A DNA stretch of 64,000 nucleotides, from NCBI GenBank assembly GCA_030762935.1, contig CM060899.1:57338501-57402500 (forward strand), read 5' to 3'. The position numbers were made by a program, and so were the translations under genes. Source of the stretch: Hymenopus coronatus. Taxonomy: Eukaryota; Arthropoda; Insecta; Mantodea; Hymenopodidae. The notes below the pieces were generated by a model. That model had not been told where the DNA came from, searched no databases, and worked only from the letters and a program-made list of their open reading frames with translations. Shown piece after piece: positions 31,040 through 52,884 of the stretch; the first letter of the stretch is position 1, and the number at the start of each line of letters is the position of its first letter.

Positions 31040-31182
31040 CATTTTTACTTCCTTTACACGTACTATGCACATAGATATAGAGAAGGTATATTACACCCAA
31101 AAATTCGATGTCAAAACTTCCACAATATGTTTTGAGATCCCCCAAGTCCAAAAAAAAAACATTTTTAGAAAAAGGCCCTTGT

Positions 31183-31220
<38 letters not shown>

Positions 31221-31749
31221 ACAGCATGGCTCAAAAAGAAACGAAAACTTGATACACAGGTTTGGTATCTACCAAGGATGCGACACTATTTTCAAGAAAA
31301 TCTCCCCACTCCAAACTACTCTTTACATAGAAATGTAATTGAAATTTTTGATTAAAATACCACATGCTTAAGACATTTTTATGAAAAATGAAATGTAGAA
31401 CTTGAATTATATGGGAGTAACCTCTGAAGACCTATTTATTCTGGATGGCCTTTGTAGAACATTTTATAACTGGCAAACCGTTAGAAATAAACAAAATCTT
31501 ACTTCACAAAAAAGATATGGTCTCATTAAAACACACAATTTATGTAATATACTTTTTTTTCTTTTTGTATAGATATCCGTTTCCAAGATATTGTTTCTTT
31601 GGTTTCAATTTTAAGCTACTTAAAATTTTCTCAAACGGCTTTCTTTCCGTCTATATTTTGTTTGCTCCTGGCAAGCAAAGAGAATGGAATTTTAATTGTT
31701 TCACATAACGACAGCTTTTAAAAGATTTGACTATCGCTTTAGCCTAGTG
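31040..31749 (-). mobile_element. H element copy, left half, host of the giant palindrome
   Basis: Palindromic end at 31045-31090, a GA microsatellite (31186-31220), and H blocks up to TTTAGCCTAGTG, where the giant element begins. It continues at 48292-48468. Confidence 0.8.
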
Positions 31750-32075
31750 AGTAGGGGTTAAAGGGGGATTTCGGGACTCAAAGGATGCCGCCCATGTAAA
31801 CATCATGTACATATGTAACACTTAAGATAAACATCAGCCGACAGACCACCCACACAGCGCTGCCTCTTTGCCAAGACAACAGTCTAAAAGCTTCCCCATG
31901 TACCTGTCAATCAAAGTATGTGCTGCCGGCTACTACCCCCTCCCCCTTTGCCAAACCACCTGTCTAAAAGATTTTACTTGCAGGGTTCTTAATCACTTGA
32001 ACAATCGCCTTTCACATTCACAGATCAAATTCAATTTAATCGATTGACCACGCCCACTCGAATTTCTAATTTTGA

Positions 32076-32285
32076 GCTACAAGGCTCATCTGCATATCAA
32101 ATCGATCTAGTTTTTCACGAGGAATCTGAATCTCTGATCATAAATACAAAATTCTTTTGATTTCAATTCGATAGTCTCTTTTAATTAAAAACACGTATGA
32201 TTTCTCTATCTCTGGCAATTCGAGAGCTACAAGGCTCATTTGCATGACAAATCAGTCTAATTTTTCACAAAGAATCTGTATATAC
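32076..32285. repeat. Two imperfect ~150-bp direct repeats near the left palindrome end
   Basis: Each copy contains CTACAAGGCTCAT followed by TGCAT and a TTTTTCAC-AGAATCTG block. Mirrored at about 47756-47965 in the right arm. Their subterminal position suggests a structural or binding role in the element (inference). Confidence 0.5.
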
Positions 32286-32515
32286 AAACCTAGTTCAACT
32301 GTCATGGCGAAAAAACTCGATAAAATTACTGAGTGGAATATTTGATATAAATTATTAGATATCAATTGAACATGCGTTAGCGGTAATATTTTTGCAAGGA
32401 ATTATAACACTCACACGATTGAACATGTTAAAAGCTTTATTATTCAATACCAACATATGAAATGAAAAATAGCAAGAGAGAGAATTGCTTTTATAAAACA
32501 TACTAACTTATCACA

Positions 32516-32885
32516 TCAAAAACCAATATGGCGGCGAAGTGATTGTGTTTCCAACGAGCAGAGGGCACCCAGCAGGGAATTGAACCTGGGACCTCTCGAA
32601 CACTGAGAATGCCAACATCATTCCAACACTAGACATTATAAATCTTAATAACGATTCTTACACGGAGACCTAAAATCAACTTTCAGTGTGGGGGGGACCT
32701 ACTAATTCATCATATCAAAACCAAATTGGCGGTGAAGTGATTGTGTTTCCAACGAGCAGAGGGCACCTCAACTGGGAATTCAACCTGAGACCTCTCGAAC
32801 ACTGAGAATGCCAACATCATTCCAACACTAGACATTATAAATCTTAATAACGGTTCTTACACGGAGACCTACAATGAACTTTCAG
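32516..32885. repeat. Tandem pair of ~190-bp tRNA-SINE-like units, left arm
   Basis: Two copies carry GAAGTGATTGTGTTTCCAAC and, on the complement, a B-box-like GGTTCAATTCCC, then a shared block ending in ACACGGAGACCTA. Mirrored at 47156-47525. Confidence 0.55.
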
Positions 32886-32984
32886 CGGCGGTGCAACCAC
32901 GCGACTTTACTGCTATGTATAATTAAACAACCTCAAAAAGGATTGAATGTAGAATGCAATTATAACACTCGCTATACATAAAAG

Positions 32985-33625
32985 CTGTTCTTATTCCCTT
33001 ATAATCCCCTATCCAGTACAAGAATTAACTTCACGAATAATCAAGAAACTTTAATTACACTAATTAAAATGACAATAACGCTTAAAGAATTGAGGTTACA
33101 ATAAAACGCCATAACACTTTTCTTATTCCTTTATCAGCCCATACCCAGCACAAGTACAAGACACATGATTGGTTAATTTTAAGAAATTTGAATTACAATT
33201 ACGCTAATTAAATGTTATTAACGGTTAAATAATTGAGATTACAATAAAATACTATGAGACTTTTCTTGCTCATTTATCACCCTTCATCCAGTACAAGAAT
33301 GAATTCCAGCTATCCAACACTCGAGAAACTTTAATTACAATTACGCAAATTAAAATGTCAATAACACTTAGAGAATTGAAGCTACAATAAAACGCCGTAA
33401 CACTTTCCTTATTCCTTTATCAGCCCATACCCATTTGTGATTGGCTAATTTAAGAAATTTTAATTACAATTACGCCAGTTAAAATGCCAATAACGCTTTG
33501 AGAATTGAAGTTACAATAAAAGGCTATTAGACTTTTCTCAACCCTTACCATCTCCTATTCAGTACGAGCATTAGATTCTCGGTTAATTCAATAAATTTTA
33601 ATTACAATTATGCCTTTACTTCAAT
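32985..33625. repeat. Four ~160-bp tandem repeats, left arm
   Basis: Units share TTAATTACAATTACGC, then an AATAACGCTT segment, ACAATAAAACGCC and a TTATTCCTTTATCAGCCC-like block. Mirrored at about 46416-47056. Confidence 0.6.
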
Positions 33626-33811
33626 TGAAAAATGTAAATAACAACTCCATTTGCAACGATGTAGCGAAATGGGTGATACAAATTCTTCACGAAATTACAT
33701 CTACATGCTAATTACATACTTGGATTATACGCCCAGTGTATTCAAACATTATTCGTAACTATCACAAGACATAAAATGTTTTTATTTACGCAAATGTCAG
33801 ACCTATACCAA

Positions 33812-34668
33812 AATATGGTGTGTTCCATTCACGTGACCTTCTATACCTCTCTGAAACAAATTATTGTTAAAAAGCTTGTACGTCTTTTTACTTCATGCTA
33901 ATCGAGTAAAAACTAGTAGAAATAGTCTTCATACTTGCTTCCTTGTAAGTAGAAGCTAACTAAGGAAGTACCATAGGTTAAAGTGATAGTCATAGTCAAA
34001 AGTTGGCTGCTATGTCACTCTCCTGTAAGAGAAAGTATATGTTTTTAAAGCTGAAACAAATAACAATGATTATATCGAAAAAAAGGGTTCACTCCACAAA
34101 AATCATGTATTTAACATAAATCGTGTGTTTTAACGTGCCCTACATTTTTGTGTGGTAAGCTTTTATCTATCTCTTATGGTTTACTAGTTATAACAATTTA
34201 TTCAGAATAAAAAAAAGGTCTTCAGAGATTATACTCAGAAAATTCAAGTTATACATTTTATTTGTCCGGTAATTATCTTTAATATGGGATATTCTAATCA
34301 AAATCGTTAGAACCATTTTTAGAAATAACATTTTTCGAAAAAACGTTCCATGTAAAGGGTAGTTTGGGGGTGGGGCTTTTCTCAAAAATCTTCGGGTCGC
34401 ATACCTGGAAGATACTAAACTTAAATACCAAACCGAATTTGCGTTTTTGAGCTATGCTGCCCAGTCACACACATATACACACCAACACACGCAAACACAC
34501 AGACATGCAGACACACACGAATCTTTTTCTAAAATGGATTATTTTGGATACAGGGGACCACAAAAACATATATATTCCCAGTGAAAAATCAGCATCCGAT
34601 TTTGGGTGGAATACAATACCTTCTCTATACACTATGTACAAAGTACGTGTAGAGAAAGTAAAAACAAC
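33812..34668 (+). mobile_element. H element copy inside left palindrome arm
   Basis: Complete: starts AAAATATGGTGTGTTCC and ends at the palindrome with ACGTGTAGAGAAAGT. The mirror copy is 45373-46229. Confidence 0.8.
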
Positions 34669-34670
34669 AG

Positions 34671-35290
34671 CTAACACAATTTGAAATCACTTAGACTGCC
34701 TACAACTAACTGAGCTGTATTCTCTAATTTTCAACACTGTACATTTTCAACAAGGAGATACCATAGTAAAACCGACAGCTAACATGGCTTGAAATCACTT
34801 AGACAGCCTACAACTGACTGAGCTGTATTCTCTAATTTTCAACACTGTACATTTTCAACAAGGGGATACCATAGTAAAACCAACAGCTAACATGGCTTGA
34901 AATCACTTAGACAGCCTACAACTGACTCAGAAGTATTCTCTAATTTCAACACTGTAGTATAAACTATAGCTTGAAGCATCACGTACCTTGACGATTATGC
35001 ATAAATAAATACCTTCAAATGAAATACCATACCAAAATAACAGCTAACATTGCTTGAAATCACTTAGACAGACTACAACTGACACATCAGTATTCTCTAA
35101 TTTTAACACTGAAGTATAAGCTATAACTTGAAGTACTCTCCACATAACTTGACAATTATGCATAAATAGACATCTTCAAAAATAAATACCATACCAAAAC
35201 TAACAGCTAACATTGCTTGAAATCACTTAGACAGCCTACAACTGACACAGCAGTATTCTCTAACTTCAACAGAGAAGTATAATTTATAAC
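34671..35290. repeat. About five tandem repeats of ~110-180 bp, left arm
   Basis: Each unit has ACAGCTAACAT, TTGAAATCACTTAGACAG and TATTCTCTAATTT blocks, often followed by ATACCATA. Mirrored at 44751-45370. The array abuts the H copy at 33812-34668. Confidence 0.65.
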
Positions 35291-35606
35291 TCGAAGCACT
35301 CATCACATAACTTGAGGATTGAGCATAAATAAACATTTTCATAAACACTTATCACAATCGCTATGAAAGAAAGCCGCGCAAGGCTGCTCACCTCTTGGCT
35401 AACATATAACACAAGGGAAAACGGAAACATACTACCTATTACAAAAAGCGAAGCATGATCCGACCAGTTCCAGACGATAAAGAAGGCTGGCGACATTTTG
35501 AACAAAACATCCTAGCTCTCCCCTTCAGAGCTTTCTGTTAGAAAAACATCCTCACTCGGCCCCTCTAGGCTAAGAACAGGCAGATACATGCATTCCCCTT
35601 CCTTAG

Positions 35607-36190
35607 GTATACACTGAAGAAAACATGTTTTTTTTATGTGAGCAACTATATAAGCCTGAGGTCTGCAATATATAGCTACTTATTCAATATAACCGCCGTG
35701 AAAAAGCATTCTTGAAAACAAACGTCAAAGCTTTTGATGATATGAACGAATACAGGAGAGAGTGTGCTGAAGATTCGCATCATTATACATACTTTCACAA
35801 AGAATTCTGCAATGGACGAATGCATACGATTACATGCATATACCCTGCTTACCATAATCAGATACCTTCAAGGAATCCCTGTACCGAAGAGTGCTCTGTC
35901 TACAAGATAGATATATTGCAAGTACAATACATTCACGTCTTTCTACTATTATAAGTACTACAAATGTATTCGAGTAATGATGGTTAATTCCAATACATTT
36001 TTATATATCAAGGGGTCGGAACACACAAGAGCTTCACGATTCAGATACCATAGATGCAACGGATATGTTTAGATCAGCACATGAGATTGAAGATCACTTA
36101 GAATTATGCGACGGTCGCACTCATGTTGTGATTTGTTCAAAACCCGCAGTGCATGATAGAATAACATCATACTTCATCTGCAACTTGACC
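35607..36190 (+). pseudogene. Cys-module gene, left-arm copy (broken)
   Basis: Mirror of the right-arm gene. One substitution at 35673 turns a GAG codon into TAG at codon 17 of exon A. The second module exon is cut at 36190, where a 1,648-bp segment present in the right arm is absent, removing its donor and the downstream exon. Otherwise nearly identical to the right arm. Confidence 0.6.
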
Positions 36191-36747
36191 GAGAAAAAAT
36201 TGCATTACATAAGAACTTCATATATTTCTACAAAAGAGAATTTGTACAAGTAAGTTCGATACAAAAGGTTTTTCACACTGAATACACGATTTGAGGGCAA
36301 CCGAACACTTAAAAAGCAAGTTTTAGACAAAGTATAGTGTGCGAGTGAGTGCATGTGAAGCAGCGTACCTCTAAAAATACACAAATTCGAAGTGACAATT
36401 GAAGTGCTTTGGCACATTAAATTTCTTATTTCTAATGTACAACGGAGTAACATGTAATGAAAACATTCTGCTATTATTTAGAATTATAAGCGTGAATTAT
36501 ATATAAAAGAAAATCTCATCTTAATGATGGGCGATTCGTTCAAGTCATGGATGCAGGAGCACAAGGACACTAATCGGTTGAAAATACCAATTGAGCATTT
36601 TCAGAAAAATATTAGTGTTGTATGTACAGTATAACTTAAACACTCAATTTTTATTGACTTCAGATTTATACTACTTCAACTCTCTTAAACAGGAAGTGAT
36701 GTTTCGTTTCATCTTTATTGGTTTACTCATGTCAATGCAAATCGTGA

Positions 36748-36984
36748 GGCCGCGCCATGGTCGAGTGGTTAGACTACTCTCCTCTCACCAAGGAGGTCCG
36801 GAGTCGACCCCAGGCAACAGCATGGGGGATTTGTTATGGACAAAGCAGCGCAGGGGGCGGGTTTTCTGAGGTTTCCCCCTGCCATCACATTCCACCGATG
36901 CTCCACGTTCATTCCATATATCAGTAGTGTCATCGCCTGCGATGCCACAAGTAGTAAAAGCAGGCGTTAAACACATAAAAAAAG
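36748..36984 (+). mobile_element. SINE family A in left arm
   Basis: Full-length: A box TGGTCGAGTGGTTAGACT, B box-like GGAGTCGACCCC, body ending GGCGTTAAACACATAAAAAA. Mirror at 41409-41645. Confidence 0.75.
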
Positions 36985-37473
36985 TGAACGAATTTCAATG
37001 AGAATCGCAGGGCTAAACATTATAAAAGATCCGACTAACCTAGTAATTTCCGCTAATGTCCCTAATTATATGGGGAACAATTGAATAAGAACATTTTTTT
37101 TCTGGAAAATGTTTATCTTGAATAGCATGAAGTAACAGAAGAATATAATTATTTTAATATTGTCTATCATGAAATCTCAACCCATGTGCACGCTTCTGCT
37201 AAAGAATGTTTCCTTACACCTACATCACGCCGAAAAGAATACTACAGGTGAACTCATGGTTTCATTACAGAATTTCATGTCTAGTTCTTTATTACATTAA
37301 AACTCTTATAAAGTGAAGGAAATGAAAATCCATTTATGTTGATAGAACTAAACCGAACACGCAGTTTTAAATGGTCACTCCTAAAATCACTGCTTCTAAT
37401 CAGATCTGCAATCAATACAAAAACAAGGTTAAACATTCAATGCACTTAGTTATAATATCAGAAAATAAGACTG

Positions 37474-37600
37474 TCTCCGTGGTCATACGGGTAAGTGAGC
37501 TGACTTCTCACCTGCAGATACCGGGTTCGATCCACGGCTAGGACGGAGAATTTTTCTTTAACCGCAATTACTCCCTATCCCAACAGAGTCTGGAAGGTAT
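37474..37600 (+). mobile_element. SINE family D in left arm
   Basis: tRNA-like head GTCTCCGTGGTCATACGGGT, B box GGGTTCGATCCAC, then CCCTATCCCAACAGAGTCTG. The mirror in the right arm is 40793-40919. Confidence 0.65.
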
Positions 37601-37856
37601 AAATGGGCATGTGTTTAGTAATATAAACAATTAATTACCATAAAGTTCTAAACCTACACTAATACGAGTTGCTTCATAAGTCAAAGCCCCTATGTGACCA
37701 TTGTATTGCAACAGGTCCCTAAAGAGATATAATTACACATTCATATATCTCAAGGTTTTTCTCAAGCTCGCTCAACATCCAGGATTCACAAATATTAGTT
37801 TCTTATATGCTCTCTTTATAACATGGAAAATATGTTAGCATCTTCAATTTCTTCTT

Positions 37857-37857
37857 C

Positions 37858-37906
<49 letters not shown>

Positions 37907-37913
37907 ATTATTA
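37857..37913. repeat. (TTA)n microsatellite, left arm
   Basis: A TTA/ATT run. The mirror at about 40498-40536 is 15 bp shorter, i.e. five units, one of the few differences between the arms. Confidence 0.8.
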
Positions 37914-38059
37914 GTTTGTCACCTTTCTGGGAAAAAACACGACTGTAACTCAAGTACAAAATTAAAACTCGGATGCTAGCAGTTTTGGTTTGTATGAGAA
38001 CTGGTAAAATAACTTAAGGATAAACCCATGCGGATTTTATTATATAACGTTACAAACTT

Positions 38060-38375
38060 ATTTGTTGCTTGCCAAGCGGTAGATCTGCGATCGATTCATA
38101 GTACAGGCATAGGAATTTTTCCCCCAGCTAGGATACATGGACTGGGGTGCACTCAGCCTCGCGAGGTCCCTGGAGGGGGCCAATTGAGGAGCTACTTGAT
38201 GGAGAAGTAGCGGCTCCAGGTCATGAGGACAGCATTAACTGGTCAGGGGGGGAGGGAGATCAAAGCGCAGTCCACGTCTCACCTCCTCAATAGTGCACCC
38301 CATCCATGACGTCTGTAACGGAGCGAGATGGGGGACACAGCAGCAGTCCAAGGCTCTTAGCTGTGCAAGGGAGTC
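38060..38375 (+). mobile_element. SINE family B in left arm
   Basis: Diverged head (GCTTGCCAAGCGGTAGATC, GCGATCGATTCATAG) and well-kept body (GGGGTGCACTCAGCCTCGCG). Mirror at 40033-40348. Confidence 0.65.
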
Positions 38376-38576
38376 ACAAGCTTATACTAAAAAGCCTGCG
38401 ATTTTCACAATGCACACAATAATTTTCTTAATAAGTAACATTTAATTAGTTGACCCATCCTAACCTAAATAACCTAAATTAACCTAACCTTCCTAAACTA
38501 ATCTAATATCATAGCCAATAATAAACATCAGACACACCACATTCATTATAGAAATACATTACAACATCATATGACC

Positions 38577-38951
38577 TCATTTGTCAATTTTTCGCTCTAT
38601 TACAGCAGAATCATTCATCTCACGCATATTCAAGAAGATTTCTTTTGACTGCTTCCCTTTGTAAGCTGCTTGCGAGTACATTAGCAATCGTAGCCGATCT
38701 ACCAGAGAATTTACATCATCATAAGAAGATGTTTTATCTACACCGCTGACTTGGTCCAACCACTTCATTGCTGAGACATGTAGCTTCTCTTTAATCTTGA
38801 ATAGTAATAATCATGGCTAACACAAGACTCGTGACTTTGAATTATATACATCATTAAATGATGTTGCCATGCATGTTGCATCAGGAAGGCAAATCACAGC
38901 ACAGGCAAACACAATTGCAATGAGATACTTGCACAGCATTGTGCAAAACAT
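38577..38951 (-). CDS. Small secreted protein candidate, left-arm central copy
   Basis: Mirror image of the copy at 39457-39831. The 63 residues from MKWLDQVSG to the stop are identical and the signal exon and short intron (38849-38796) are conserved, so both copies are equally intact. The two copies diverge from the palindrome centre, about 500 bp apart. Confidence 0.5.
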
Positions 38952-39172
38952 AACATAGAATTCTATCAGAAAATTACAAAAATAGTTGCACAATGCTAAT
39001 TTAACAAATGAATGTATGATACCCTAAGGACAACCTAACCTCAGTCATCATATTCAACATAACGCAAGCAATAACATTATACGTTAAATGAAGAAAATCC
39101 ATTCTGTATATATTAATTATGACAGACAATAGACACATCTTTATCTACCAATACGTTTAATTCTTGGAGAAC

Positions 39173-39235
39173 TCTTCAAATGGGGTATACACTTTCCTAA
39201 AGGAACCGAAGTACATACCACTATCTGACCATTTC
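39173..39235. other. Loop at the centre of the giant palindrome
   Basis: About 63 bp of non-palindromic sequence. The innermost paired bases are 39172/39236, with one mismatch at 39166/39242. The loop has no obvious gene. The central small genes are transcribed outward from here on both sides. Confidence 0.8.
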
Positions 39236-39456
39236 GTTCTCGAAGAATTAAACGTATTGGTAGATAAAGATGTGTCTATTGTCTGTCATAATTAATATAT
39301 ACAGAATGGATTTTCTTCATTTAACGTATAATGTTATTGCTTGCGTTATGTTGAATATGATGACTGAGGTTAGGTTGTCCTTAGGGTATCATACATTCAT
39401 TTGTTAAATTAGCATTGTGCAACTATTTTTGTAATTTTCTGATAGAATTCTATGTT

Positions 39457-39831
39457 ATGTTTTGCACAATGCTGTGCAAGTATCTCATTGCAATTGTGTT
39501 TGCCTGTGCTGTGATTTGCCTTCCTGATGCAACATGCATGGCAACATCATTTAATGATGTATATAATTCAAAGTCACGAGTCTTGTGTTAGCCATGATTA
39601 TTACTATTCAAGATTAAAGAGAAGCTACATGTCTCAGCAATGAAGTGGTTGGACCAAGTCAGCGGTGTAGATAAAACATCTTCTTATGATGATGTAAATT
39701 CTCTGGTAGATCGGCTACGATTGCTAATGTACTCGCAAGCAGCTTACAAAGGGAAGCAGTCAAAAGAAATCTTCTTGAATATGCGTGAGATGAATGATTC
39801 TGCTGTAATAGAGCGAAAAATTGACAAATGA
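39457..39831 (+). CDS. Small secreted protein candidate, right-arm central copy (2 exons)
   Basis: Exon 1 (39457-39558) encodes a signal peptide, MLCKYLIAIVFACAVICLP and onward, from ATG 39469 (or 39457). A donor GTATAT at 39559 and an acceptor ATTCAAG ending at 39612 define a 54-bp intron with matching phase 0. Exon 2 (39613-39831) encodes IKEKLHVSAMKWLDQVSGVD, then an amphipathic helical stretch (VDRLRLLMYSQAAYKGKQSK) and a charged end. Total ~102-106 aa. It has no predicted Cys pairing in the mature part and no family recognised. The mirror copy in the left arm has the same exon 2 protein. A TATATA-like site lies ~160 bp upstream. The splice is inferred; the unspliced frame ends at 39591. 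Confidence 0.5.
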
Positions 39832-40032
39832 GGTCATATGATGTTGTAATGTATTTCTATAATGAATGTGGTGTGTCTGATGTTTATTATTGGCTATGAT
39901 ATTAGATTAGTTTAGGAAGGTTAGGTTAATTTAGGTTATTTAGGTTAGGATGGGTCAACTAATTAAATGTTACTTATTAAGAAAATTATTGTGTGCATTG
40001 TGAAAATCGCAGGCTTTTTAGTATAAGCTTGT

Positions 40033-40348
40033 GACTCCCTTGCACAGCTAAGAGCCTTGGACTGCTGCTGTGTCCCCCATCTCGCTCCGTTACAGACGTC
40101 ATGGATGGGGTGCACTATTGAGGAGGTGAGACGTGGACTGCGCTTTGATCTCCCTCCCCCCCTGACCAGTTAATGCTGTCCTCATGACCTGGAGCCGCTA
40201 CTTCTCCATCAAGTAGCTCCTCAATTGGCCCCCTCCAGGGACCTCGCGAGGCTGAGTGCACCCCAGTCCATGTATCCTAGCTGGGGGAAAAATTCCTATG
40301 CCTGTACTATGAATCGATCGCAGATCTACCGCTTGGCAAGCAACAAAT
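40033..40348 (-). mobile_element. SINE family B in right arm
   Basis: Inverted duplicate of 38060-38375. Confidence 0.65.
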
Positions 40349-40501
40349 AAGTTTGTAACGTTATATAATAAAATCCGCATGGGTTTATCCTTAAGTTATT
40401 TTACCAGTTCTCATACAAACCAAAACTGCTAGCATCCGAGTTTTAATTTTGTACTTGAGTTACAGTCGTGTTTTTTCCCAGAAAGGTGACAAACTAATAA
40501 T

Positions 40502-40535
<34 letters not shown>

Positions 40536-40792
40536 GAAGAAGAAATTGAAGATGCTAACATATTTTCCATGTTATAAAGAGAGCATATAAGAAACTAATA
40601 TTTGTGAATCCTGGATGTTGAGTGAGCTTGAGAAAAACCTTGAGATATATGAATGTGTAATTATATCTCTTTAGGGACCTGTTGCAATACAATGGTCACA
40701 TAGGGGCTTTGACTTATGAAGCAACTCGTATTAGTGTAGGTTTAGAACTTTATGGTAATTAATTGTTTATATTACTAAACACATGCCCATTT

Positions 40793-40919
40793 ATACCTTC
40801 CAGACTCTGTTGGGATAGGGAGTAATTGCGGTTAAAGAAAAATTCTCCGTCCTAGCCGTGGATCGAACCCGGTATCTGCAGGTGAGAAGTCAGCTCACTT
40901 ACCCGTATGACCACGGAGA
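40793..40919 (-). mobile_element. SINE family D in right arm
   Basis: Inverted duplicate of 37474-37600. Confidence 0.65.
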
Positions 40920-41408
40920 CAGTCTTATTTTCTGATATTATAACTAAGTGCATTGAATGTTTAACCTTGTTTTTGTATTGATTGCAGATCTGATTAGAAG
41001 CAGTGATTGTAGGAGTGACCATTTAAAACTGCGTGTTCGGTTTAGTTCTATCAACATAAATGGATTTTCATTTCCTTCACTTTATAAGAGTTTTAATGTA
41101 ATAAAGAACTAGACATGAAATTCTGTAATGAAACCATGAGTTCACCTGTAGTATTCTTTTCGGCGTGATGTAGGTGTAAGGAAACATTCTTTAGCAGAAG
41201 CGTGCACATGGGTTGAGATTTCATGATAGACAATATTAAAATAATTATATTCTTCTGTTACTTCATGCTATTCAAGATAAACATTTTCCAGAAAAAAAAT
41301 GTTCTTATTCAATTGTTCCCCATATAATTAGGGACATTAGCGGAAATTACTAGGTTAGTCGGATCTTTTATAATGTTTAGCCCTGCGATTCTCATTGAAA
41401 TTCGTTCA

Positions 41409-41645
41409 CTTTTTTTATGTGTTTAACGCCTGCTTTTACTACTTGTGGCATCGCAGGCGATGACACTACTGATATATGGAATGAACGTGGAGCATCGGTG
41501 GAATGTGATGGCAGGGGGAAACCTCAGAAAACCCGCCCCCTGCGCTGCTTTGTCCATAACAAATCCCCCATGCTGTTGCCTGGGGTCGACTCCGGACCTC
41601 CTTGGTGAGAGGAGAGTAGTCTAACCACTCGACCATGGCGCGGCC
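41409..41645 (-). mobile_element. SINE family A in right arm
   Basis: Inverted duplicate of 36748-36984. Confidence 0.75.
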
Positions 41646-42202
41646 TCACGATTTGCATTGACATGAGTAAACCAATAAAGATGAAACGAAACATCACTTC
41701 CTGTTTAAGAGAGTTGAAGTAGTATAAATCTGAAGTCAATAAAAATTGAGTGTTTAAGTTATACTGTACATACAACACTAATATTTTTCTGAAAATGCTC
41801 AATTGGTATTTTCAACCGATTAGTGTCCTTGTGCTCCTGCATCCATGACTTGAACGAATCGCCCATCATTAAGATGAGATTTTCTTTTATATATAATTCA
41901 CGCTTATAATTCTAAATAATAGCAGAATGTTTTCATTACATGTTACTCCGTTGTACATTAGAAATAAGAAATTTAATGTGCCAAAGCACTTCAATTGTCA
42001 CTTCGAATTTGTGTATTTTTAGAGGTACGCTGCTTCACATGCACTCACTCGCACACTATACTTTGTCTAAAACTTGCTTTTTAAGTGTTCGGTTGCCCTC
42101 AAATCGTGTATTCAGTGTGAAAAACCTTTTGTATCGAACTTACTTGTACAAATTCTCTTTTGTAGAAATATATGAAGTTCTTATGTAATGCAATTTTTTC
42201 TC

Positions 42203-43850
42203 ATGAAGCTAACCAATCACCTGTAAAGTTTCTGAAAAAGCATTATAAGTAAATTAAGCTGTCGCTGTATATTATACATTTAAGAACAAGGAGAGCGAAT
42301 TTTTTAAAATCCTACCAGCCGTTTCAAGGTTCTTGATTGATTAGGTATCTTCTTTTTTGCGAATTAGCTCGTAGTTTTTCAGATGATTCCTACCAATCAC
42401 TGCGCTGAGACCTTTTCTCTAAATTGATTTATCTGATATCTGCCTGTTCCACTTTTATAGATGGGCTTCTACCGTAAACTTGATTGGGTTTTTAGCATTG
42501 AAACTGTTTTTCATTGGTCGAGCTATGTATTACTTACACTCTTGTTAGAGAAGTGTGTGATAAAAGTAAAGCTGAAGAAACGGATTATTTCCTGTATGAA
42601 TGCTAGTAAACAGAAGTGCCCTCTAGATATTTGCTACTCAGCCTGGTGTTCCTGTTTTGCTGGTGTAAAGGGGTATTTTCGCTCTCAACCTTAAAGCATG
42701 CAGGACGTCTATCACCAGAAATTACAATATTAAATTGTCTGATTATACACAATGAGGTATTTACCTACAAGCCCTTATCACCTGTCATGTAATCGATAAT
42801 TTAAATGCCTAATTATGCAAAGGAATAGGATGTTGAACATTTGTATTTGTTTTTGTGGAATAAAAACATTAGTGGGATTATATGTACATAATAGTTTTAT
42901 TTATAAGTATTTTCATTACATTCCTTCTCCATGTCCGTGCCTCTTCAAAATGTTTTATTTTCATTAGTTAGATTAAATAAATGTTTGCTTATAAATGTGC
43001 CAGCTTCTTTACATCTTCATTTCTTTTTAAATCCTACTCATCCTTTGTTTTATTTTATTAAAAGGGTCTAGCGGCTTCGTTTTTTTTTCATGAATGCAAT
43101 TATATATTATAGCACTATATTTTTCAATATATTCACAATGTGCGCACTTTGTCTTTTGTGCACATGCAGAATTTAGGGAGTCATAGGCGCGCTTTATATA
43201 TGTCATGTATATACAAAGCCATTAGCATCACTGGTGTTGAGAAGCACTGGTAGTTCATAATAAAGCGCTACACTAGAACTATTTGTTTTGGATATGTAGA
43301 ATTGGATGAATACGTTCAGTTGGTCTGCTCTGGGTTTCATATTTCTCTTTGCTTGCCTCTCGTTTACAAATGCTGTGCATGCGGTCTTCCAGCAATCTCA
43401 GCTTCCTGAGATGACTAGCAAAAGGGTCTTTCTCCTCTTATATCTCCTTGGATCTGGAACATTAGAATTATTGAAAATTAGTAAATGTTATTAATTTTCC
43501 TTTGACTCGATCACTGCAATGGAAATAAGGTTAGTTTCTTTCTTGATGTAATAGCAATATATTATACTCACATTGATGCTTGATTCGACGTACTCGTATT
43601 CGGAATGTCATCATAATCTTGTACAGGGCAGGTGTTCCATGGGTTTGAAATGCAGACATCCACCTCGTCAACGTCAGTCCTAGCAGGGTCTATGAGCTCT
43701 GGCGGTATGGGGATTGACTCTCGAACTCTGGAAAGAACAATGAGGGTTATTAACTTTTTCAAGAAATAAATGTGTGATGTGCTGGTCACTCATCGTATTT
43801 TTAGTTTGTAATTACCTTTGTCTCATATGCCTTGACCAATACACGTTACA
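42203..43850. other. 1,648-bp segment present only in the right arm
   Basis: The junction in the left arm is 36190/36191. The segment holds part of exon B and all of exon C of the Cys-module gene and a second secreted-protein candidate (43306-43494). It has no terminal repeats or flanking duplication, so a deletion from the left arm is likelier than an insertion into the right. Confidence 0.75.
43306..43494 (+). CDS. Small secreted protein candidate (or first exon), right arm only
   Basis: The 62-codon frame starts with a good signal peptide, MNTFSWSALGFIFLFACLSF followed by TNAVHA, with likely cleavage before VFQQ. A TTTATATATG box near 43192 precedes it by ~110 bp. The remainder (KRVFLLLYLLGSG) may be read-through into an intron. 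It runs antisense to the probable end of the Cys-module gene, so one of the two models may be wrong there. No homologue recognised. Confidence 0.35.
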   Translation: MNTFSWSALGFIFLFACLSFTNAVHAVFQQSQLPEMTSKRVFLLLYLLGSGTLELLKISKCY

Positions 43851-44434
43851 GGTCAAGTTGCAGATGAAGTATGATGTTATTCTATCATGCACTGCGGGTT
43901 TTGAACAAATCACAACATGAGTGCGACCGTCGCATAATTCTAAGTGATCTTCAATCTCATGTGCTGATCTAAACATATCCGTTGCATCTATGGTATCTGA
44001 ATCGTGAAGCTCTTGTGTGTTCCGACCCCTTGATATATAAAAATGTATTGGAATTAACCATCATTACTCGAATACATTTGTAGTACTTATAATAGTAGAA
44101 AGACGTGAATGTATTGTACTTGCAATATATCTATCTTGTAGACAGAGCACTCTTCGGTACAGGGATTCCTTGAAGGTATCTGATTATGGTAAGCAGGGTA
44201 TATGCATGTAATCGTATGCATTCGTCCATTGCAGAATTCTTTGTGAAAGTATGTATAATGATGCGAATCTTCAGCACACTCTCTCCTGTATTCGTTCATA
44301 TCATCAAAAGCTTTGACGTTTGTTTTCAAGAATGCTTTTTCACGGCGGTTATATTGAATAAGTAGCTCTATATTGCAGACCTCAGGCTTATATAGTTGCT
44401 CACATAAAAAAAACATGTTTTCTTCAGTGTATAC
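43572..44434 (-). CDS. Cys-module gene candidate, right arm (at least 3 exons)
   Basis: Three minus-strand exons are visible. Exon A (44434 to ~44120; ATG at 44416) follows the acceptor TTCCTTAG. Exon B (44028-43816) has donor AAAG then GTAATT. Exon C (43727-43572) has acceptor TTTCCAG and donor GTGAGT. B and C join in phase. The A-B donor is not settled: the best donor (CAA then GTACAA) is in the wrong phase, so a small exon may be missing. Exons A and B encode the same module twice: FCNGRMHTITC..PAYHNQI.S...C...C.VY and LCDGRTHVVIC..PAVHDRI.S...C...C.VY. Exon C is Pro/Asp-rich with two Cys. No family was recognised; an extracellular protein is likely from the Cys pattern. Its end may lie near 43470. 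Confidence 0.5.
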
Positions 44435-44750
44435 CTAAGGAAGGGGAATGCATGTATCTGCCTGTTCTTAGCCTAGAGGGGCCGAGTGAGGATGTTTTTC
44501 TAACAGAAAGCTCTGAAGGGGAGAGCTAGGATGTTTTGTTCAAAATGTCGCCAGCCTTCTTTATCGTCTGGAACTGGTCGGATCATGCTTCGCTTTTTGT
44601 AATAGGTAGTATGTTTCCGTTTTCCCTTGTGTTATATGTTAGCCAAGAGGTGAGCAGCCTTGCGCGGCTTTCTTTCATAGCGATTGTGATAAGTGTTTAT
44701 GAAAATGTTTATTTATGCTCAATCCTCAAGTTATGTGATGAGTGCTTCGA

Positions 44751-47056
44751 GTTATAAATTATACTTCTCTGTTGAAGTTAGAGAATACTGCTGTGTCAGT
44801 TGTAGGCTGTCTAAGTGATTTCAAGCAATGTTAGCTGTTAGTTTTGGTATGGTATTTATTTTTGAAGATGTCTATTTATGCATAATTGTCAAGTTATGTG
44901 GAGAGTACTTCAAGTTATAGCTTATACTTCAGTGTTAAAATTAGAGAATACTGATGTGTCAGTTGTAGTCTGTCTAAGTGATTTCAAGCAATGTTAGCTG
45001 TTATTTTGGTATGGTATTTCATTTGAAGGTATTTATTTATGCATAATCGTCAAGGTACGTGATGCTTCAAGCTATAGTTTATACTACAGTGTTGAAATTA
45101 GAGAATACTTCTGAGTCAGTTGTAGGCTGTCTAAGTGATTTCAAGCCATGTTAGCTGTTGGTTTTACTATGGTATCCCCTTGTTGAAAATGTACAGTGTT
45201 GAAAATTAGAGAATACAGCTCAGTCAGTTGTAGGCTGTCTAAGTGATTTCAAGCCATGTTAGCTGTCGGTTTTACTATGGTATCTCCTTGTTGAAAATGT
45301 ACAGTGTTGAAAATTAGAGAATACAGCTCAGTTAGTTGTAGGCAGTCTAAGTGATTTCAAATTGTGTTAGCTGTTGTTTTTACTTTCTCTACACGTACTT
45401 TGTACATAGTGTATAGAGAAGGTATTGTATTCCACCCAAAATCGGATGCTGATTTTTCACTGGGAATATATATGTTTTTGTGGTCCCCTGTATCCAAAAT
45501 AATCCATTTTAGAAAAAGATTCGTGTGTGTCTGCATGTCTGTGTGTTTGCGTGTGTTGGTGTGTATATGTGTGTGACTGGGCAGCATAGCTCAAAAACGC
45601 AAATTCGGTTTGGTATTTAAGTTTAGTATCTTCCAGGTATGCGACCCGAAGATTTTTGAGAAAAGCCCCACCCCCAAACTACCCTTTACATGGAACGTTT
45701 TTTCGAAAAATGTTATTTCTAAAAATGGTTCTAACGATTTTGATTAGAATATCCCATATTAAAGATAATTACCGGACAAATAAAATGTATAACTTGAATT
45801 TTCTGAGTATAATCTCTGAAGACCTTTTTTTTATTCTGAATAAATTGTTATAACTAGTAAACCATAAGAGATAGATAAAAGCTTACCACACAAAAATGTA
45901 GGGCACGTTAAAACACACGATTTATGTTAAATACATGATTTTTGTGGAGTGAACCCTTTTTTTCGATATAATCATTGTTATTTGTTTCAGCTTTAAAAAC
46001 ATATACTTTCTCTTACAGGAGAGTGACATAGCAGCCAACTTTTGACTATGACTATCACTTTAACCTATGGTACTTCCTTAGTTAGCTTCTACTTACAAGG
46101 AAGCAAGTATGAAGACTATTTCTACTAGTTTTTACTCGATTAGCATGAAGTAAAAAGACGTACAAGCTTTTTAACAATAATTTGTTTCAGAGAGGTATAG
46201 AAGGTCACGTGAATGGAACACACCATATTTTGGTATAGGTCTGACATTTGCGTAAATAAAAACATTTTATGTCTTGTGATAGTTACGAATAATGTTTGAA
46301 TACACTGGGCGTATAATCCAAGTATGTAATTAGCATGTAGATGTAATTTCGTGAAGAATTTGTATCACCCATTTCGCTACATCGTTGCAAATGGAGTTGT
46401 TATTTACATTTTTCAATTGAAGTAAAGGCATAATTGTAATTAAAATTTATTGAATTAACCGAGAATCTAATGCTCGTACTGAATAGGAGATGGTAAGGGT
46501 TGAGAAAAGTCTAATAGCCTTTTATTGTAACTTCAATTCTCAAAGCGTTATTGGCATTTTAACTGGCGTAATTGTAATTAAAATTTCTTAAATTAGCCAA
46601 TCACAAATGGGTATGGGCTGATAAAGGAATAAGGAAAGTGTTACGGCGTTTTATTGTAGCTTCAATTCTCTAAGTGTTATTGACATTTTAATTTGCGTAA
46701 TTGTAATTAAAGTTTCTCGAGTGTTGGATAGCTGGAATTCATTCTTGTACTGGATGAAGGGTGATAAATGAGCAAGAAAAGTCTCATAGTATTTTATTGT
46801 AATCTCAATTATTTAACCGTTAATAACATTTAATTAGCGTAATTGTAATTCAAATTTCTTAAAATTAACCAATCATGTGTCTTGTACTTGTGCTGGGTAT
46901 GGGCTGATAAAGGAATAAGAAAAGTGTTATGGCGTTTTATTGTAACCTCAATTCTTTAAGCGTTATTGTCATTTTAATTAGTGTAATTAAAGTTTCTTGA
47001 TTATTCGTGAAGTTAATTCTTGTACTGGATAGGGGATTATAAGGGAATAAGAACAG
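44751..47056. repeat. Mirror of left-arm tandem arrays and H copy, right arm
   Basis: Contains, in reverse order, the ~110-180-bp array (44751-45370), the H copy (45373-46229) and the ~160-bp array (46416-47056). Confidence 0.6.
45373..46229 (-). mobile_element. H element copy inside right palindrome arm
   Basis: Inverted duplicate of 33812-34668. Present in both arms at the same place, so it was there before the arm was duplicated. Confidence 0.8.
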
Positions 47057-47155
47057 CTTTTATGTATAGCGAGTGTTATAATTGCATTCTACATTCAATC
47101 CTTTTTGAGGTTGTTTAATTATACATAGCAGTAAAGTCGCGTGGTTGCACCGCCG

Positions 47156-47525
47156 CTGAAAGTTCATTGTAGGTCTCCGTGTAAGAACCGTTATTAAGAT
47201 TTATAATGTCTAGTGTTGGAATGATGTTGGCATTCTCAGTGTTCGAGAGGTCTCAGGTTGAATTCCCAGTTGAGGTGCCCTCTGCTCGTTGGAAACACAA
47301 TCACTTCACCGCCAATTTGGTTTTGATATGATGAATTAGTAGGTCCCCCCCACACTGAAAGTTGATTTTAGGTCTCCGTGTAAGAATCGTTATTAAGATT
47401 TATAATGTCTAGTGTTGGAATGATGTTGGCATTCTCAGTGTTCGAGAGGTCCCAGGTTCAATTCCCTGCTGGGTGCCCTCTGCTCGTTGGAAACACAATC
47501 ACTTCGCCGCCATATTGGTTTTTGA
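47156..47525. repeat. Mirror of the tandem SINE-like pair, right arm
   Basis: Inverted copy of 32516-32885 (paired positions sum to 80,041). Confidence 0.6.
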
Positions 47526-48291
47526 TGTGATAAGTTAGTATGTTTTATAAAAGCAATTCTCTCTCTTGCTATTTTTCATTTCATATGTTGGTATTGAATA
47601 ATAAAGCTTTTAACATGTTCAATCGTGTGAGTGTTATAATTCCTTGCAAAAATATTACCGCTAACGCATGTTCAATTGATATCTAATAATTTATATCAAA
47701 TATTCCACTCAGTAATTTTATCGAGTTTTTTCGCCATGACAGTTGAACTAGGTTTGTATATACAGATTCTTTGTGAAAAATTAGACTGATTTGTCATGCA
47801 AATGAGCCTTGTAGCTCTCGAATTGCCAGAGATAGAGAAATCATACGTGTTTTTAATTAAAAGAGACTATCGAATTGAAATCAAAAGAATTTTGTATTTA
47901 TGATCAGAGATTCAGATTCCTCGTGAAAAACTAGATCGATTTGATATGCAGATGAGCCTTGTAGCTCAAAATTAGAAATTCGAGTGGGCGTGGTCAATCG
48001 ATTAAATTGAATTTGATCTGTGAATGTGAAAGGCGATTGTTCAAGTGATTAAGAACCCTGCAAGTAAAATCTTTTAGACAGGTGGTTTGGCAAAGGGGGA
48101 GGGGGTAGTAGCCGGCAGCACATACTTTGATTGACAGGTACATGGGGAAGCTTTTAGACTGTTGTCTTGGCAAAGAGGCAGCGCTGTGTGGGTGGTCTGT
48201 CGGCTGATGTTTATCTTAAGTGTTACATATGTACATGATGTTTACATGGGCGGCATCCTTTGAGTCCCGAAATCCCCCTTTAACCCCTACT

Positions 48292-48468
48292 CCTAGTGCA
48301 TTCCCTTATTTCCCTCTACTTACAAAGCAGCAAATAGTGAGACCATTTCTGCTAATGTCCCTCTGAATTAGCACGATGTACATAAAAGAATAATCTTTTG
48401 TAAGAAAAATTTGTTTGTTTGTGGTATAGCAAGAGAAAGTCGTGTGAATCGAACACATCAAACTTTTA
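48292..48468 (-). mobile_element. H element copy, right half
   Basis: Resumes with CCTAGTGCATTCCCTTATTT and ends GAACACATCAAACTTTT. With 31040-31749 it makes one ordinary H copy if one CCTAGTG is removed. Confidence 0.8.
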
Positions 48469-48936
48469 GAAAAAGGTGAGCGCTCGCGCATGTATGAGAG
48501 TCTGTGAACAGCACAGCTAAAAAGCGAAAAGTCGGTTAAATGCCAAACTTATTTAAGTTCAGCATCTTCCAAGGATCGATCCGAAGGTTTTCAAGAAAAT
48601 CCCCCACACCAAACTACCCTTTACATAGAAAACTTTTTCGAAAATGGCTCCAACGATTTTGATTAAAATATCATGTATTAAAGATATGCATATGACAAGT
48701 AAAATGTATATCTTGAATTTTCTGGGAATAGCCTCTGAAGACATCTTCATTCTGGATGACTTTTGTATAATTGGCAATTCGTAAGACATTGACAAAAATT
48801 TACCGCCCAGAAAAGGTAAATCTCGTTAAAACACAGTTTATGCCATCCATTTTTCGTGGAGTTAGCCGTTTCCGAGATATTCTTTGATATTGGTTTCAAT
48901 TTTTAAATACCTAAACTTCTCTCAAACTGTTTTTCT
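48469..48936 (-). mobile_element. H element fragment beside the satellite
   Basis: Starts inside the element (TTAGAAAAAGGTGAGCG) and runs to AATACCTAAACTTCTCTC, where the TCAC satellite begins. Confidence 0.65.
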
Positions 48937-48946
48937 TTTTTTATTT

Positions 48947-51900
48947 CTTCTTCTCACTCACACATCTCTTCATTCACTCACCCCACCACTTTCTCAGTCA
49001 CTCACTGATCCCCTCACTTACTCTTATACGAACCATCATGTGGATTCCACTCACTCCCAGACACTCATTCACTTACTCATCCAAACCCTCTCACTCCATC
49101 ATTAACAAACATTCTACCCCTTCGATGACTTACTCATTCTATCAATTACTCAGTCACCCCCTCACTTTCTCACCTCCCCACTTGCTCATAGACCTCTCAA
49201 ACACTTACTCGCCCTCTCATGCACTCAATTACTCAGCCAGTCACTCACTCACCCCTTACGTATTCATTCAGTCCTTTCTCATTCATTCTCACCTGTCAAT
49301 CACTCTACCCTACACTCAGACATCCAAAACCTCACTTATTCATTCACACCCTCACATAGTCACACCCAAAACCATCTCACTTACCCTCTCATTCATTCAC
49401 TCACTCCCTCACCAATTCATGATTTCACTCATTTATCCATTCACCCCCTCATTACTCACCCCTTCACTTATCACACCCCCTCCCTTAATTATTTTGCTCA
49501 ACCCCACAGAGTTACTTAACCCTTAAATCATTCAACTACTCAGTAACACACTTCCTCAGTTGTCTCTCACTCACCCCCTCACTTATTCACTCCTTCGGGC
49601 ACTTACCCCATTACACGATCACCACACGATCATTCTCACCCTCTTCATCGCATACTCCATCACTTACTCACTCACTTAATCTCTCAAATCTTATTTCATT
49701 CACTCATCCCTCCTCTAATTTACTTAGCCCACACACAATGCTAACCACACTTACTTATCCCCTCACTCACTAGCACATTCCCCACTAACCCTCTCTTACT
49801 TATTAACACCCTCAGTCAGCTACTCATTATTCACTCCTTCACTCACTCATTTCCTCATCACTCACCAACTCCTTTACCCCTTACTTACAACTCACCACCC
49901 CTCACTTCTTTACCCCCTCATTCACACTCATCACTCAGCCCTCATTTATTCACTAACTCACCCTTCCACTCACTTTCTCCTCGCTCATCCGCACGCTTTC
50001 TCACTCACACTATAACCCTCACTCAATAACCTCTCATCACTCTCTTTCTCACCCACTACCCCTCACTTTTCACACATTCAGCCTCTCACACTCACCCCTA
50101 TCTCATTCACTAACTCACAGAATTCACGTACTCATCCCCAAGTCACTCATTCATGCCCTCTGTAACACTCATTTACTCAATTCACCCTCCCATTCACTCC
50201 CTCATTTTCTCTATCTTACAGCTTCACTCCTTCACTGCCTTACTTTCTCACTCACTAAACCCCTCAATTACACACTTAGCCCCTTACATTCTCACATGCA
50301 CCCCTTCATTTACTAAACCCCCATTCTCTCACTTCCTTACTTACGCTTCACCCCCTGTCACATTTTGTCACTCATTCACCTCCTCACTTATAATCTCATT
50401 CATAATGTCAATAACCCTTTCACTCTAAGATACTCACTTACTCATCTTTTCACTTCATCCTCCCACTCTCTCCCCTTCATTCACTTCTTAACTTACTCAC
50501 CCTCGCACATATTCACCCCCTATTTACACACACTCTGTGACTCACCCCTTACATACTCACTCACTCCCTCTCTCCATCACTTATTCTCTCAACAACCCAC
50601 TCACTAACTCAGCCACTTATTACACGTTCATCGCCTAACTCACTTATTCTCTTACTCCCGCTCACTTATCCACACTCACCCCCTCACTCCCCATTCCATC
50701 GCTTATGCATACTTTCACTCACTCACTACTTCATGCAACCCGTCACTTAGCACTCATTCTATTATTCACTCACTCGTTCAGCACTTTGGTTACTCAGCAA
50801 CTCTCTCACTCACTCATCTACCCCTCACTTGCCCTCTCACGCACAACTATTCTCTTACTCAACCCCCATTTACTCGCTCACTTCATTTTAATAAGTCATC
50901 ATTTCATCCTCATTCACTACCACACCCACTCTCTTACTAAATGCTCACCCCCTCATTTACAAACGCACTCTCTCAATCACTTACCCCATTACACGTGCAC
51001 TCACTCACCCCCTCACCTAATCACTCATTCACACCCTCACAAGGCTCACCCACCAATATATTCACTTACCCCATTTCTCACTAACGTCTCACTCTTCACA
51101 CCTTCTACATACTTACATTCATCCACTAGCTCGTTCTCTCAACCATTATACCTCCCATCCCTCTCCAATTCACCGAACCATTCACTTGCTGCTTCACCCT
51201 ACCCCTCATCTCAATCGCCTCTTCAATGGCCCACTAACCTCCTCAGTTACCCCCCCTTTCTCACTAACTCCTACTCATTATCTCACTTTCCCCTTCACAT
51301 CCTAATGACTACTTCACTCACCAACTCGCCACACACCCCCTCTCACCTCTTCAGTCATTCAAATCTGTTACCCACTCATTCCTCACTCCACACATCACTT
51401 ATCCTTATTCCACCCAACGCATATTCACTCACTCACCCCCACTCACTCATAAATTTACTCATTTACTCCCTCAATCACTCATCCCCTCACTCGTTCCTCA
51501 CTTACTGATTCATCCTTTTGATTACTTACTCACCCTCTCAATTACTCAATTTTTAACCCTCACTTTCTCCCTCCACATTTAATCACAGACCCCCTCAAAC
51601 ACTCACCATCTCAATTATCGTCACTCACCCCCTCACTTGTTCACTCACCCTTACTCATTCATTTACTAACCTCCATTATTAATTTCTCACCAAGCTCGCA
51701 AGCTTGCTCTCTCTCACACACTCAACCCCAAAACCCTCACTCACACTTTCACCTACTCATGGTTTTTTACCGTTCACTCATTTGCTCTCTTACTCACCCC
51801 CTCATTAGCTCAACCTTTCACCTACCCACCCCTCCCTTACTTACTAACCCAATATTCACTTACACTTTACTTCTTCAACCATTCACACTTACTCACTCAC

Positions 51901-52345
51901 CTTCTAACTCAACGTCATCACTCACTCTCACCCCCTCACTCATATATTACACAATCACCCACTCTCAATCACATACTACATTCTAACCCACTCACCCCCA
52001 CTCTCAATCACTTAATACCTCACTAACATCCACTCAAGCCCTCATGCATACACCCCACTTATCTTTCACTCGCCCCTCATTCCTTCTCACTAAACTACAC
52101 TTCATCTGCACACCCCATAATTAACATATTCATCCCCTCATTCACTCTCACCCTTTTAGTTACTTGCTCCATCACTTAAACAGCTTAACCCTCAATTACT
52201 CACTCAGTACACACTTACTTGCCCACATTCATTCTCCCTATTCATGCATCCACTATTTCCTTCACTTACCTATATCCTATTCTATCCCTCACACATGCCC
52301 CCACTCACTCTACCCCTATTTACTTACATCTTCACTCAGCTAGTT
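48947..52345. repeat. TCAC-type satellite, first block (3.4 kb)
   Basis: Pyrimidine/CA-rich tandem sequence made of TCACTCA, CCCCCTCACT and CATTCACT steps; the unit length is irregular. It is the reverse-strand counterpart of the GTGA satellite at 20205-22350. Its long His/Ser/Thr/Leu/Pro frames (e.g. 50705-51508) reflect composition only. Confidence 0.9.
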
Positions 52346-52421
52346 GCCTTCCATGTTCTAGGGGTAACGTGCTCCCCAATTGTTCCCAAGGTTGCAGTAT
52401 CAAACCCGACAGAGAATAATT

Positions 52422-52645
52422 TTTTTTATAGAGTTTAATGCCCGCTTTTACTACCATGCACCACAGGCATTGACACTGATGATACATGGAATGAAGATGG
52501 AGCACTGGTGGAATGTGATGGCGGGGGAAACCGGAGAAAACCTCCCCCTGAACCATTTTATCCACCACAAATTCACATGCGGTCACTTGGGATCGAACCC
52601 GGCCTGTCTAGATGAGAGTTCTAACCACTGGGCCATGGTGCGGCC
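52422..52645 (-). mobile_element. SINE family A inside the satellite
   Basis: Minus strand: A box-like TGGCCCAGTGGTTAGAA, B box GGTTCGATCCCAAG, body ending GCGGGCATTAAACTC. Inserted into, or between blocks of, the TCAC satellite. Confidence 0.7.
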
Positions 52646-52880
52646 CATAGCGGACAAATGGATTTCTTTCATTCGGACGTAAAAATCCTTAGCATGACTT
52701 CCTTCAGAAAGTAATTCAAGTCGTTGGTCCCGTGTTGTAGATTTACGGCACTAAAAGAACCTCAAGCCTCACCCTTGAGGCAAAAGAGGCCTCTGAGCAA
52801 AATTAAGCGGTCTTTCACACCCAATATAGAATGGGTTGCTGAGAACCGCAGCAGTTAAAGAGCGTCCTTAAATAAAACTC
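52646..52880. repeat. Second repeat fragment inside the satellite
   Basis: GTAAAAATCCTTAGCATGAC, a GTTGGTCCC block and GAGCAAAATTAAGCGGTC look like a SINE tail; part is shared with 27555-27610. No tRNA-like head seen. Confidence 0.45.
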
Positions 52881-52884
52881 AATT

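Follow-up and report, generated by a model that had tools for sequence, protein, structure and literature searches.

Polintons are thought to be integrated viruses, and their protein-primed replication is known mostly by inference. Partial parallels exist elsewhere: symmetric defective genomes occur in adenoviruses, virophages and other satellite viruses depend on the machinery of another element, and Galileo and Drosophila FB are foldback elements with very long inverted repeats and internal tandem arrays. The target-site duplications (TSDs) of foldback, MULE and Galileo elements other than Tetris lie within 7-10 bp. Here we analysed a stretch of 64,000 nucleotides from Hymenopus coronatus, hereafter the window (GenBank assembly GCA_030762935.1, 3.13 Gb; contig CM060899.1, or C20; forward-strand positions 57,338,501 to 57,402,500). 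It carries a near-perfect palindrome that is very probably a non-autonomous, inverted-duplicated derivative of a Polinton/Maverick, a satellite or defective-genome form that would have arisen through a hairpin. The reading as a non-autonomous Polinton derivative follows from the ends it shares with full-length elements, from the 6-bp TSDs of its family and from the order of terminal inverted repeat (TIR), accessory gene and capsid-gene tail along its arms.

Vertebrate Mavericks have 6-bp duplications and (AGT)2//(ACT)2 ends, the latter attributed to jumping back during protein-primed replication (PMC8097293). The nearest precedent found for the present element is a proposal made for invertron plasmids in PMC1864894: panhandle or racquet-shaped intermediates were suggested as the source of the long mitochondrial inverted repeats around integrated copies. 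Giant transposons are reviewed in PMC6431247, used as background only. A literature search over titles and abstract openings, with subscription journals mostly outside its reach, returned no description of a palindromic or non-autonomous Polinton.

Structure and insertion of the palindrome

When the window was compared with its own reverse complement, near-perfect inverted arms were seen, as had been claimed by the original prediction, which was made from the letters alone. The palindrome is thus confirmed as real in the assembly sequence. The predicted extent of 31743..48298 holds for the inserted palindrome together with its target duplication; the element proper covers 31750-48291, the outer 7 bp on each side being the duplication. 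The main parts are as follows.

31040..31742, + strand: left part of the target copy of repeat H (flank alignment)
31743..31749, no strand: left TSD, CCTAGTG, 7 bp as read, 6 bp in the family (flanks)
31750..39166, + strand: left arm, ~7.4 kb, with a 1.65-kb deletion at 36190/36191 (self-comparison)
39167..39241, no strand: central loop and innermost stem, 39200-39235 being the loop word (arm alignment, genome word count)
39242..48291, - strand: right arm, ~9.1 kb, which keeps the stretch deleted from the left arm (self-comparison)
42203..43850, - strand: stretch present in the right arm only (arm alignment)
48292..48298, no strand: right TSD, CCTAGTG (flanks)
48299..48467, + strand: right part of the target H copy (flank alignment)

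Self-comparison found four substitutions between the arms. The outer arm pair (31744-36190 and 43851-48296) is 99.955% identical over ~4.4 kb, with one base different, and the inner pair (36191-39166 and 39242-42202, ~3 kb) has three base differences and one length difference in a TTA microsatellite; a loop of 60-75 bp separates the inner arms. The stretch 42203-43850 accounts for the arm difference of 1.65 kb. We read this difference as a deletion from the left arm, since exon e2 of the accessory gene is complete in the right arm (donor site by eye) and truncated in the left, and the stretch also holds e3.

The predicted insertion into an ordinary repeat with a short duplication was borne out by the flanks. 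Once joined, they gave an unbroken alignment with H, the host repeat, at further sites including 16127-16980, and CCTAGTG, found at both junctions of the element, occurred once at the matching site in the H copies at ~27.9 and ~17.9 kb.

Near-perfect palindromes with small loops are a known class of assembly artefact, which counts in favour of a missed adapter or a chimeric join. Against such an origin, many loci share the loop with copy-specific variants, flush ends at duplications and centred loops, and the target repeat of the window continues across the insertion. Searching the genome for a 36-bp loop word gave exactly 75 occurrences and for a 26-bp terminal word exactly 83, with 0 for each reversed control. 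The palindrome is therefore neither chance nor a local artefact, and an assembly error is hardly credible as its source.

The palindrome family and its full-length partners

A genome search for the terminus had been suggested with the original prediction. The 83 exact terminal words resolved into 36 facing pairs and 11 singles. In 15 of the 36 complete pairs, spanning 16.5-18.5 kb, the loop word was present, and in 14 of these 15 it lay at most 16 bp from the midpoint; in the window it is 802 bp off the midpoint owing to the left-arm deletion. Among the 21 pairs lacking an exact loop word, nine measured 19.1-19.6 kb and ten 16.7-18.05 kb, the latter including four of the palindromes retrieved as described below; the last two measured 9.3 and 10.9 kb.

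Candidates for the terminus numbered 707, of which the best 40 were scored; these had 99-100% identity, a sample biased to close relatives. Many of the 40 were in facing pairs, giving 14 pairs (window included) and 12 single ends, nine of palindrome type and three of full-length type. Ten of the 14 pairs were retrieved, as separate halves. Seven of the ten were palindromes, with aligned arms of 8.1-9.05 kb and arm identity of 99.45-99.96%, and three, 19.3-19.6 kb long, were not palindromic and had TIRs of 1,082 bp that were 99.9% alike. Of the other three pairs, judged by the sequences of both ends, the one on C12 was of palindrome type and C21:103 of full-length type; the third, L030, has the Polinton right end twice. 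Among the nine pairs of 19.1-19.6 kb, three were seen as both halves, one by both ends and three by one end. The palindrome family is large and apparently recently active.

Two short pairs were noted in passing. The 10.9-kb pair of facing termini at G000:C1:28986565-28997443 has a 6-bp TSD but lacks an exact loop word. L030 (G000:C18:135092799-135102061) is derived from a Polinton, measures 9.26 kb, carries the right end at each terminus and has no TSD; its inverted repeat of 1,215 bp extends ~130 bp beyond the TIR, a second kind of end duplication.

The gene content of the full-length elements was read in the one at C18:49.89; the other two were 99.3-99.7% alike over the compared stretches, and the one on C3 had open reading frames (ORFs) of the same lengths. 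At C18:49.89, Pfam recognised a double-jelly-roll (DJR) major capsid protein (E 1.5e-106) and, above cut-offs, PLA2-like and Pox_A32-like (ATPase) matches; matches to an adenovirus core protein and protease were both below cut-offs. A separate ORF matched a retroviral-type rve integrase (E 1.1e-10). A 1213-aa ORF carries the motifs D..NLY, NS.YGK and Y.DTDS of family B DNA polymerase (PolB), which by these motifs it would be. The capsid protein had 703 relatives at E <= 1e-10, and among the 120 listed, all that named an organism named insects. From the capsid, PLA2-like, Pox_A32-like, integrase and PolB-motif ORFs, the 19.3-19.6-kb elements are, on sequence grounds, Polinton/Mavericks. One of them, L010, contains at 4825-5402 an H-like fragment that is 92% identical to part of the H copy carried by the palindrome arm (2349-2918 in arm coordinates).

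Palindromes and full Polintons alike end in AGTAGG...CCTACT, sometimes with one extra AGT unit. The second terminal unit is AGG, so the Maverick (AGT)2//(ACT)2 motif is matched by one AGT and the occasional extra AGT. A 6-bp target duplication was found in 33 of the 36 complete elements, adjacent in 27 and separated from the element in six by one extra AGT or ACT unit on one side or on both; two of these six were read by eye, since the script had returned lengths of 7 and 8 bp and two additional bases. When partners were shuffled as a control, exact adjacent matches averaged 0.84 per 36. A 7-bp rule taken from the window alone was dropped in favour of this family-wide 6-bp rule. The palindromes thus resemble Polinton/Mavericks in terminal sequence, TSD length and AGT/ACT ends with an occasional extra unit (by the vertebrate rules given in PMC8097293), as well as in size class and in having an accessory gene next to the TIR. 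They differ in being palindromic over nearly their whole length, with termini from one end, and in having no recognised PolB, integrase, ATPase, protease or intact capsid gene. The ends place the element among the Polintons, while its gene content is not that of an autonomous one.

The prediction of a single mobile element stands on the many copies, the duplications and the symmetry; its likening to foldback elements does not, since the termini are those of a Polinton. A classical foldback, MULE or P-type element of the Galileo or Tetris kind would have lengthened TIRs and move by a cut-and-paste transposase, and the present element does share very long inverted arms, internal tandem arrays and lack of autonomy with Tetris, as described in PMC4079207. 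Set against this likeness are the TSD length, 6 bp in 33 of 36 here and 8-10 bp for Tetris in PMC4079207, the termini held in common with full Polintons and the remnant of a capsid gene within the arm. The arms here also reach the centre and carry a spliced accessory gene, and the presumed mobilising enzyme differs. Because the probable helper is a full Polinton with near-identical termini, a classical foldback is very improbable; we dropped it on the 6-bp TSDs, although the 7 bp of the window alone would be compatible with it.

Contents and derivation of the arms

Features within the arms are listed from the outside inwards.

31750..32691, + strand: left terminal segment, 97% identical to the full-Polinton TIR (alignment)
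47350..48291, - strand: right terminal segment, 97% identical to the full-Polinton TIR (alignment)
32501..32885, + strand: 199-bp tandem array, left arm, mirrored at 47156-47540 (repeat scan)
33053..33433, + strand: 143-bp tandem array, left arm (repeat scan)
33810..34664, no strand: H repeat copy within the left arm, mirrored at 45377-46231 (self-comparison)
34657..35345, + strand: 108/163-bp tandem array, left arm, mirrored at 44696-45384 (repeat scan)
44135..44344, - strand: accessory exon e1, Cys/His-rich domain, left copy at 35697-35906 (+), outer border uncertain
43816..44028, - strand: accessory exon e2, splice sites by eye, left copy truncated by the deletion
43572..43727, - strand: accessory exon e3, splice sites by eye, absent from the left arm
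42715..42801, + strand: remnant of the Polinton major capsid gene, its last 29 residues, 65.5% identical, with an internal stop
41799..41860, - strand: scrap of Polinton gene p496, similar to its end (77% over 65 bp)
40064..41645, no strand: inner arm with three repeats like short interspersed nuclear elements (SINEs), at 41392-41645, 40797-40933 and 40064-40264, mirrored in the left arm; the SINE-like label rests on inspection by eye and recurrence within the window

From outside to inside, the arm follows the left end of a full Polinton in the same order and orientation: a TIR at 97%, a next stretch at 83%, then the accessory exons. The first 943 bp of the full-element TIR are ~97% (97-98%) identical to the window arm, and in the TIR tree the full-element TIRs nest within those of the palindromes. 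The three accessory exons show 53, 56 and 55% amino-acid identity to the full Polinton. Ten helper ORFs were compared with the arm at E <= 0.01, and only the 29-residue capsid tail and a trace of a 180-aa ORF matched. The p496 scrap lies ~0.9 kb inward of the capsid tail; the Polinton core genes between the two are gone, and the tandem arrays, the H copy and the SINE-like repeats are additions. Insertions aside, the arms are thus shown, at the level of sequence, to follow the Polinton left end and to be joined at a loop common to the family, and each terminus of the palindrome comes from the same Polinton end.

Four other palindromes were compared with a full element (L009), and the capsid-tail stretch was present in 4/4 and the p496 scrap in 3/4; with the window, the counts are 5/5 and 4/5 arms. 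This bears on the notion that each palindrome arose separately after insertion, when break repair copied one Polinton arm into the other. The 9.26-kb derivative with two right ends and no TSD could have arisen in that way. For the palindromes such separate origins are most unlikely, given one loop word at 75 places and the same capsid tail and p496 scrap in these arms.

The original prediction placed genes in the arms. A gene is present; each arm holds one that is recognisable, and it is spliced. Searches for relatives drew a blank in the protein database at E <= 1 (18 candidates), among viral contigs and in the PDB, as did an exon-level profile at E <= 0.01 (11 candidates); because such searches depend on shared words and on similar length, they could overlook distant relatives. 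A search of viral contigs with the element terminus gave no match. The idea of host-gene cargo was rejected, as the full Polinton has a homologue of the arm gene in the corresponding position. Across eight palindromes the matched accessory exons showed no stop, although the deletion cuts the left arm in the window and one codon is missing in C21. The ratio of nonsynonymous to synonymous change (dN/dS) was ~0.54 over right arms (28 non-independent pairs), which weakly suggests that the accessory gene is under constraint.

In a six-frame Pfam scan of the right arm no family exceeded its cut-off, so PolB and rve integrase were unrecognised there. The earlier claim that the element would have to move in trans is supported to the extent that the arm has no recognised gene for replication or integration, the movement itself being inferred. 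A full Polinton/Maverick of this genome, whose termini are nearly identical, is the probable helper, and the shared ends and TSD suggest that its proteins would mobilise the palindromes in trans.

Matching of the arms and the proposed hairpin route

Within copies, the arms of eight palindromes differed by 63 substitutions over 68,449 sites (0.09%), compared with 1.1-4.0% (mean 2.18%, 28 pairs) between copies. A single origin followed by movement as duplex only would give arm differences at least as large as copy differences, which these values contradict. The TIR tree placed the window with C4 and C16 and the interior tree placed it with C18b; the approximately unbiased (AU) test, run on either data set, rejected the grouping drawn from the other one (p 0.0002 and 0.003, the groups having been picked after viewing the trees). 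The two arms nevertheless agreed with each other, in TIR as well as interior, in seven of the eight palindromes; the C13 TIRs differ at five sites. Conflicting trees with agreeing arms indicate that some copies recombined and then had their arms copied or corrected to match. The data imply that arms were re-matched after copies had diverged and recombined, most simply through a hairpin intermediate.

To these arm data was added a non-random sample of 20 loop-centred 781-bp pieces, chosen at about every third of the 75 listed, of which 14 have both arms beside the loop. Counting these 14 with C4 and the window, the 40 nt nearest the loop held arm differences at 29 of 640 sites and the rest at 9 of 4,695 (0.19%), so that 29 of the 38 substitutions sit next to the loop; the count left out C21 and C17 (no exact loop word), C13 (the locus ends there) and the six unmatched pieces. 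One of these, A against G, lies 6 nt short of where the alignment ends on the inner side and is shared by all 15 copies besides the window, whose centre is altered. Differences that persist beside the loop fit self-priming, in which the primer stem alone would escape rewriting.

A Polinton-derived palindrome could instead have been inserted as duplex and had its arms homogenised later by chromosomal gene conversion, as in Y-chromosome palindromes. The arm identity of 99.45-99.96% agrees with this, as does the arm-specific 1.28-kb tract of C13, which is of the kind that conversion or recombination leaves. The 1.65-kb deletion, the microsatellite difference and the four substitutions of the window have stayed unconverted, however; TSDs intact in 34/36 (the 7 bp of the window counted) suggest young copies and little time; and the rise of differences beside the loop is steep. 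We consider this explanation unlikely.

Several observations weigh against a Polinton derivative formed by hairpin and should be read together. Gene conversion after insertion may also re-match arms, and it too may weaken towards the loop, where differences remain. The raw within-copy difference at the loop, stem included, was 35/4,819 (0.73%, n=14) against a mean of 1.20% between copies, and six of the 20 loop pieces had no second arm beside the loop within their 781 bp. C13 accounts for 40 of the 63 within-copy substitutions, 35 of them in its single 1.28-kb tract. An exact terminal word lay within 12 kb of only 21 of the 75 loop words, which means that in many copies the ends are altered or gone. 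The window has a 7-bp and not a 6-bp duplication; C3:63.82 and C18:135.09 (L030) have none, and the latter may for that reason have formed after insertion. On the helper side, the 1213-aa ORF yielded neither a DNA polymerase B domain in Pfam nor a match in the PDB, and the ORF that follows the accessory gene is represented in the arm by a weak trace with 33% identity and an internal stop.

Seen separately, the C13 tract (L023/L024 arm positions ~824-2104) resembles an exchange of one arm with another copy.

With a hairpin-formed Polinton derivative still the favoured reading, the proposed course of events is as follows. The protein-primed PolB of the helper would start at the TIR, and the displaced strand would fold back as a hairpin of 9 kb. 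Copying of one arm into the other would then be primed from the loop's 3' side; alternatively, the folded duplex would be repaired. The outcome would be a perfect palindrome, to be inserted by the helper integrase. Defective genomes of protein-primed linear DNAs (adenovirus, invertron plasmids) offer a likeness, in that the terminal replication sequence is kept, essential genes are lost and one end is duplicated in inverted form. The present case differs from these in that the palindrome makes up the element itself, resides in the chromosomes in many copies and has TSDs on either side.

Elsewhere in the window, a 767-aa open frame with Gly/Asp/Ser-rich repeats (12192-14495, - strand) lies over 45- and 30-bp tandem arrays, and long degenerate GTGAGTGA-type arrays at 20143-22350 and 48915-55050 have strong GC skew of opposite signs. 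The ORF at 57540-57917 (+) resembles by eye what we take to be a mariner transposase fragment. No RNA or tRNA genes were found in the window.

The sizes of the palindromes (16.5-18.5 kb) and of the helpers (19.1-19.6 kb) suggest packaging in the helper capsid. A bolder possibility, which we put forward tentatively, is a palindromic satellite virus with a hairpin genome and a heritable, self-priming loop-stem origin, which a helper would replicate, package near capsid length and insert. Like virophages, such an element would depend on a helper; it differs from them in having no intact capsid gene of its own and in being a chromosomal palindrome. If that idea is true, arm divergence would date each insertion, as the divergence of long terminal repeats does for retroviruses. 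The palindromes and their full-length partners form a probable helper-satellite pair within an animal chromosome, and side by side they would be a natural record of Polinton replication, with its fold-back, template switching and end jumping.

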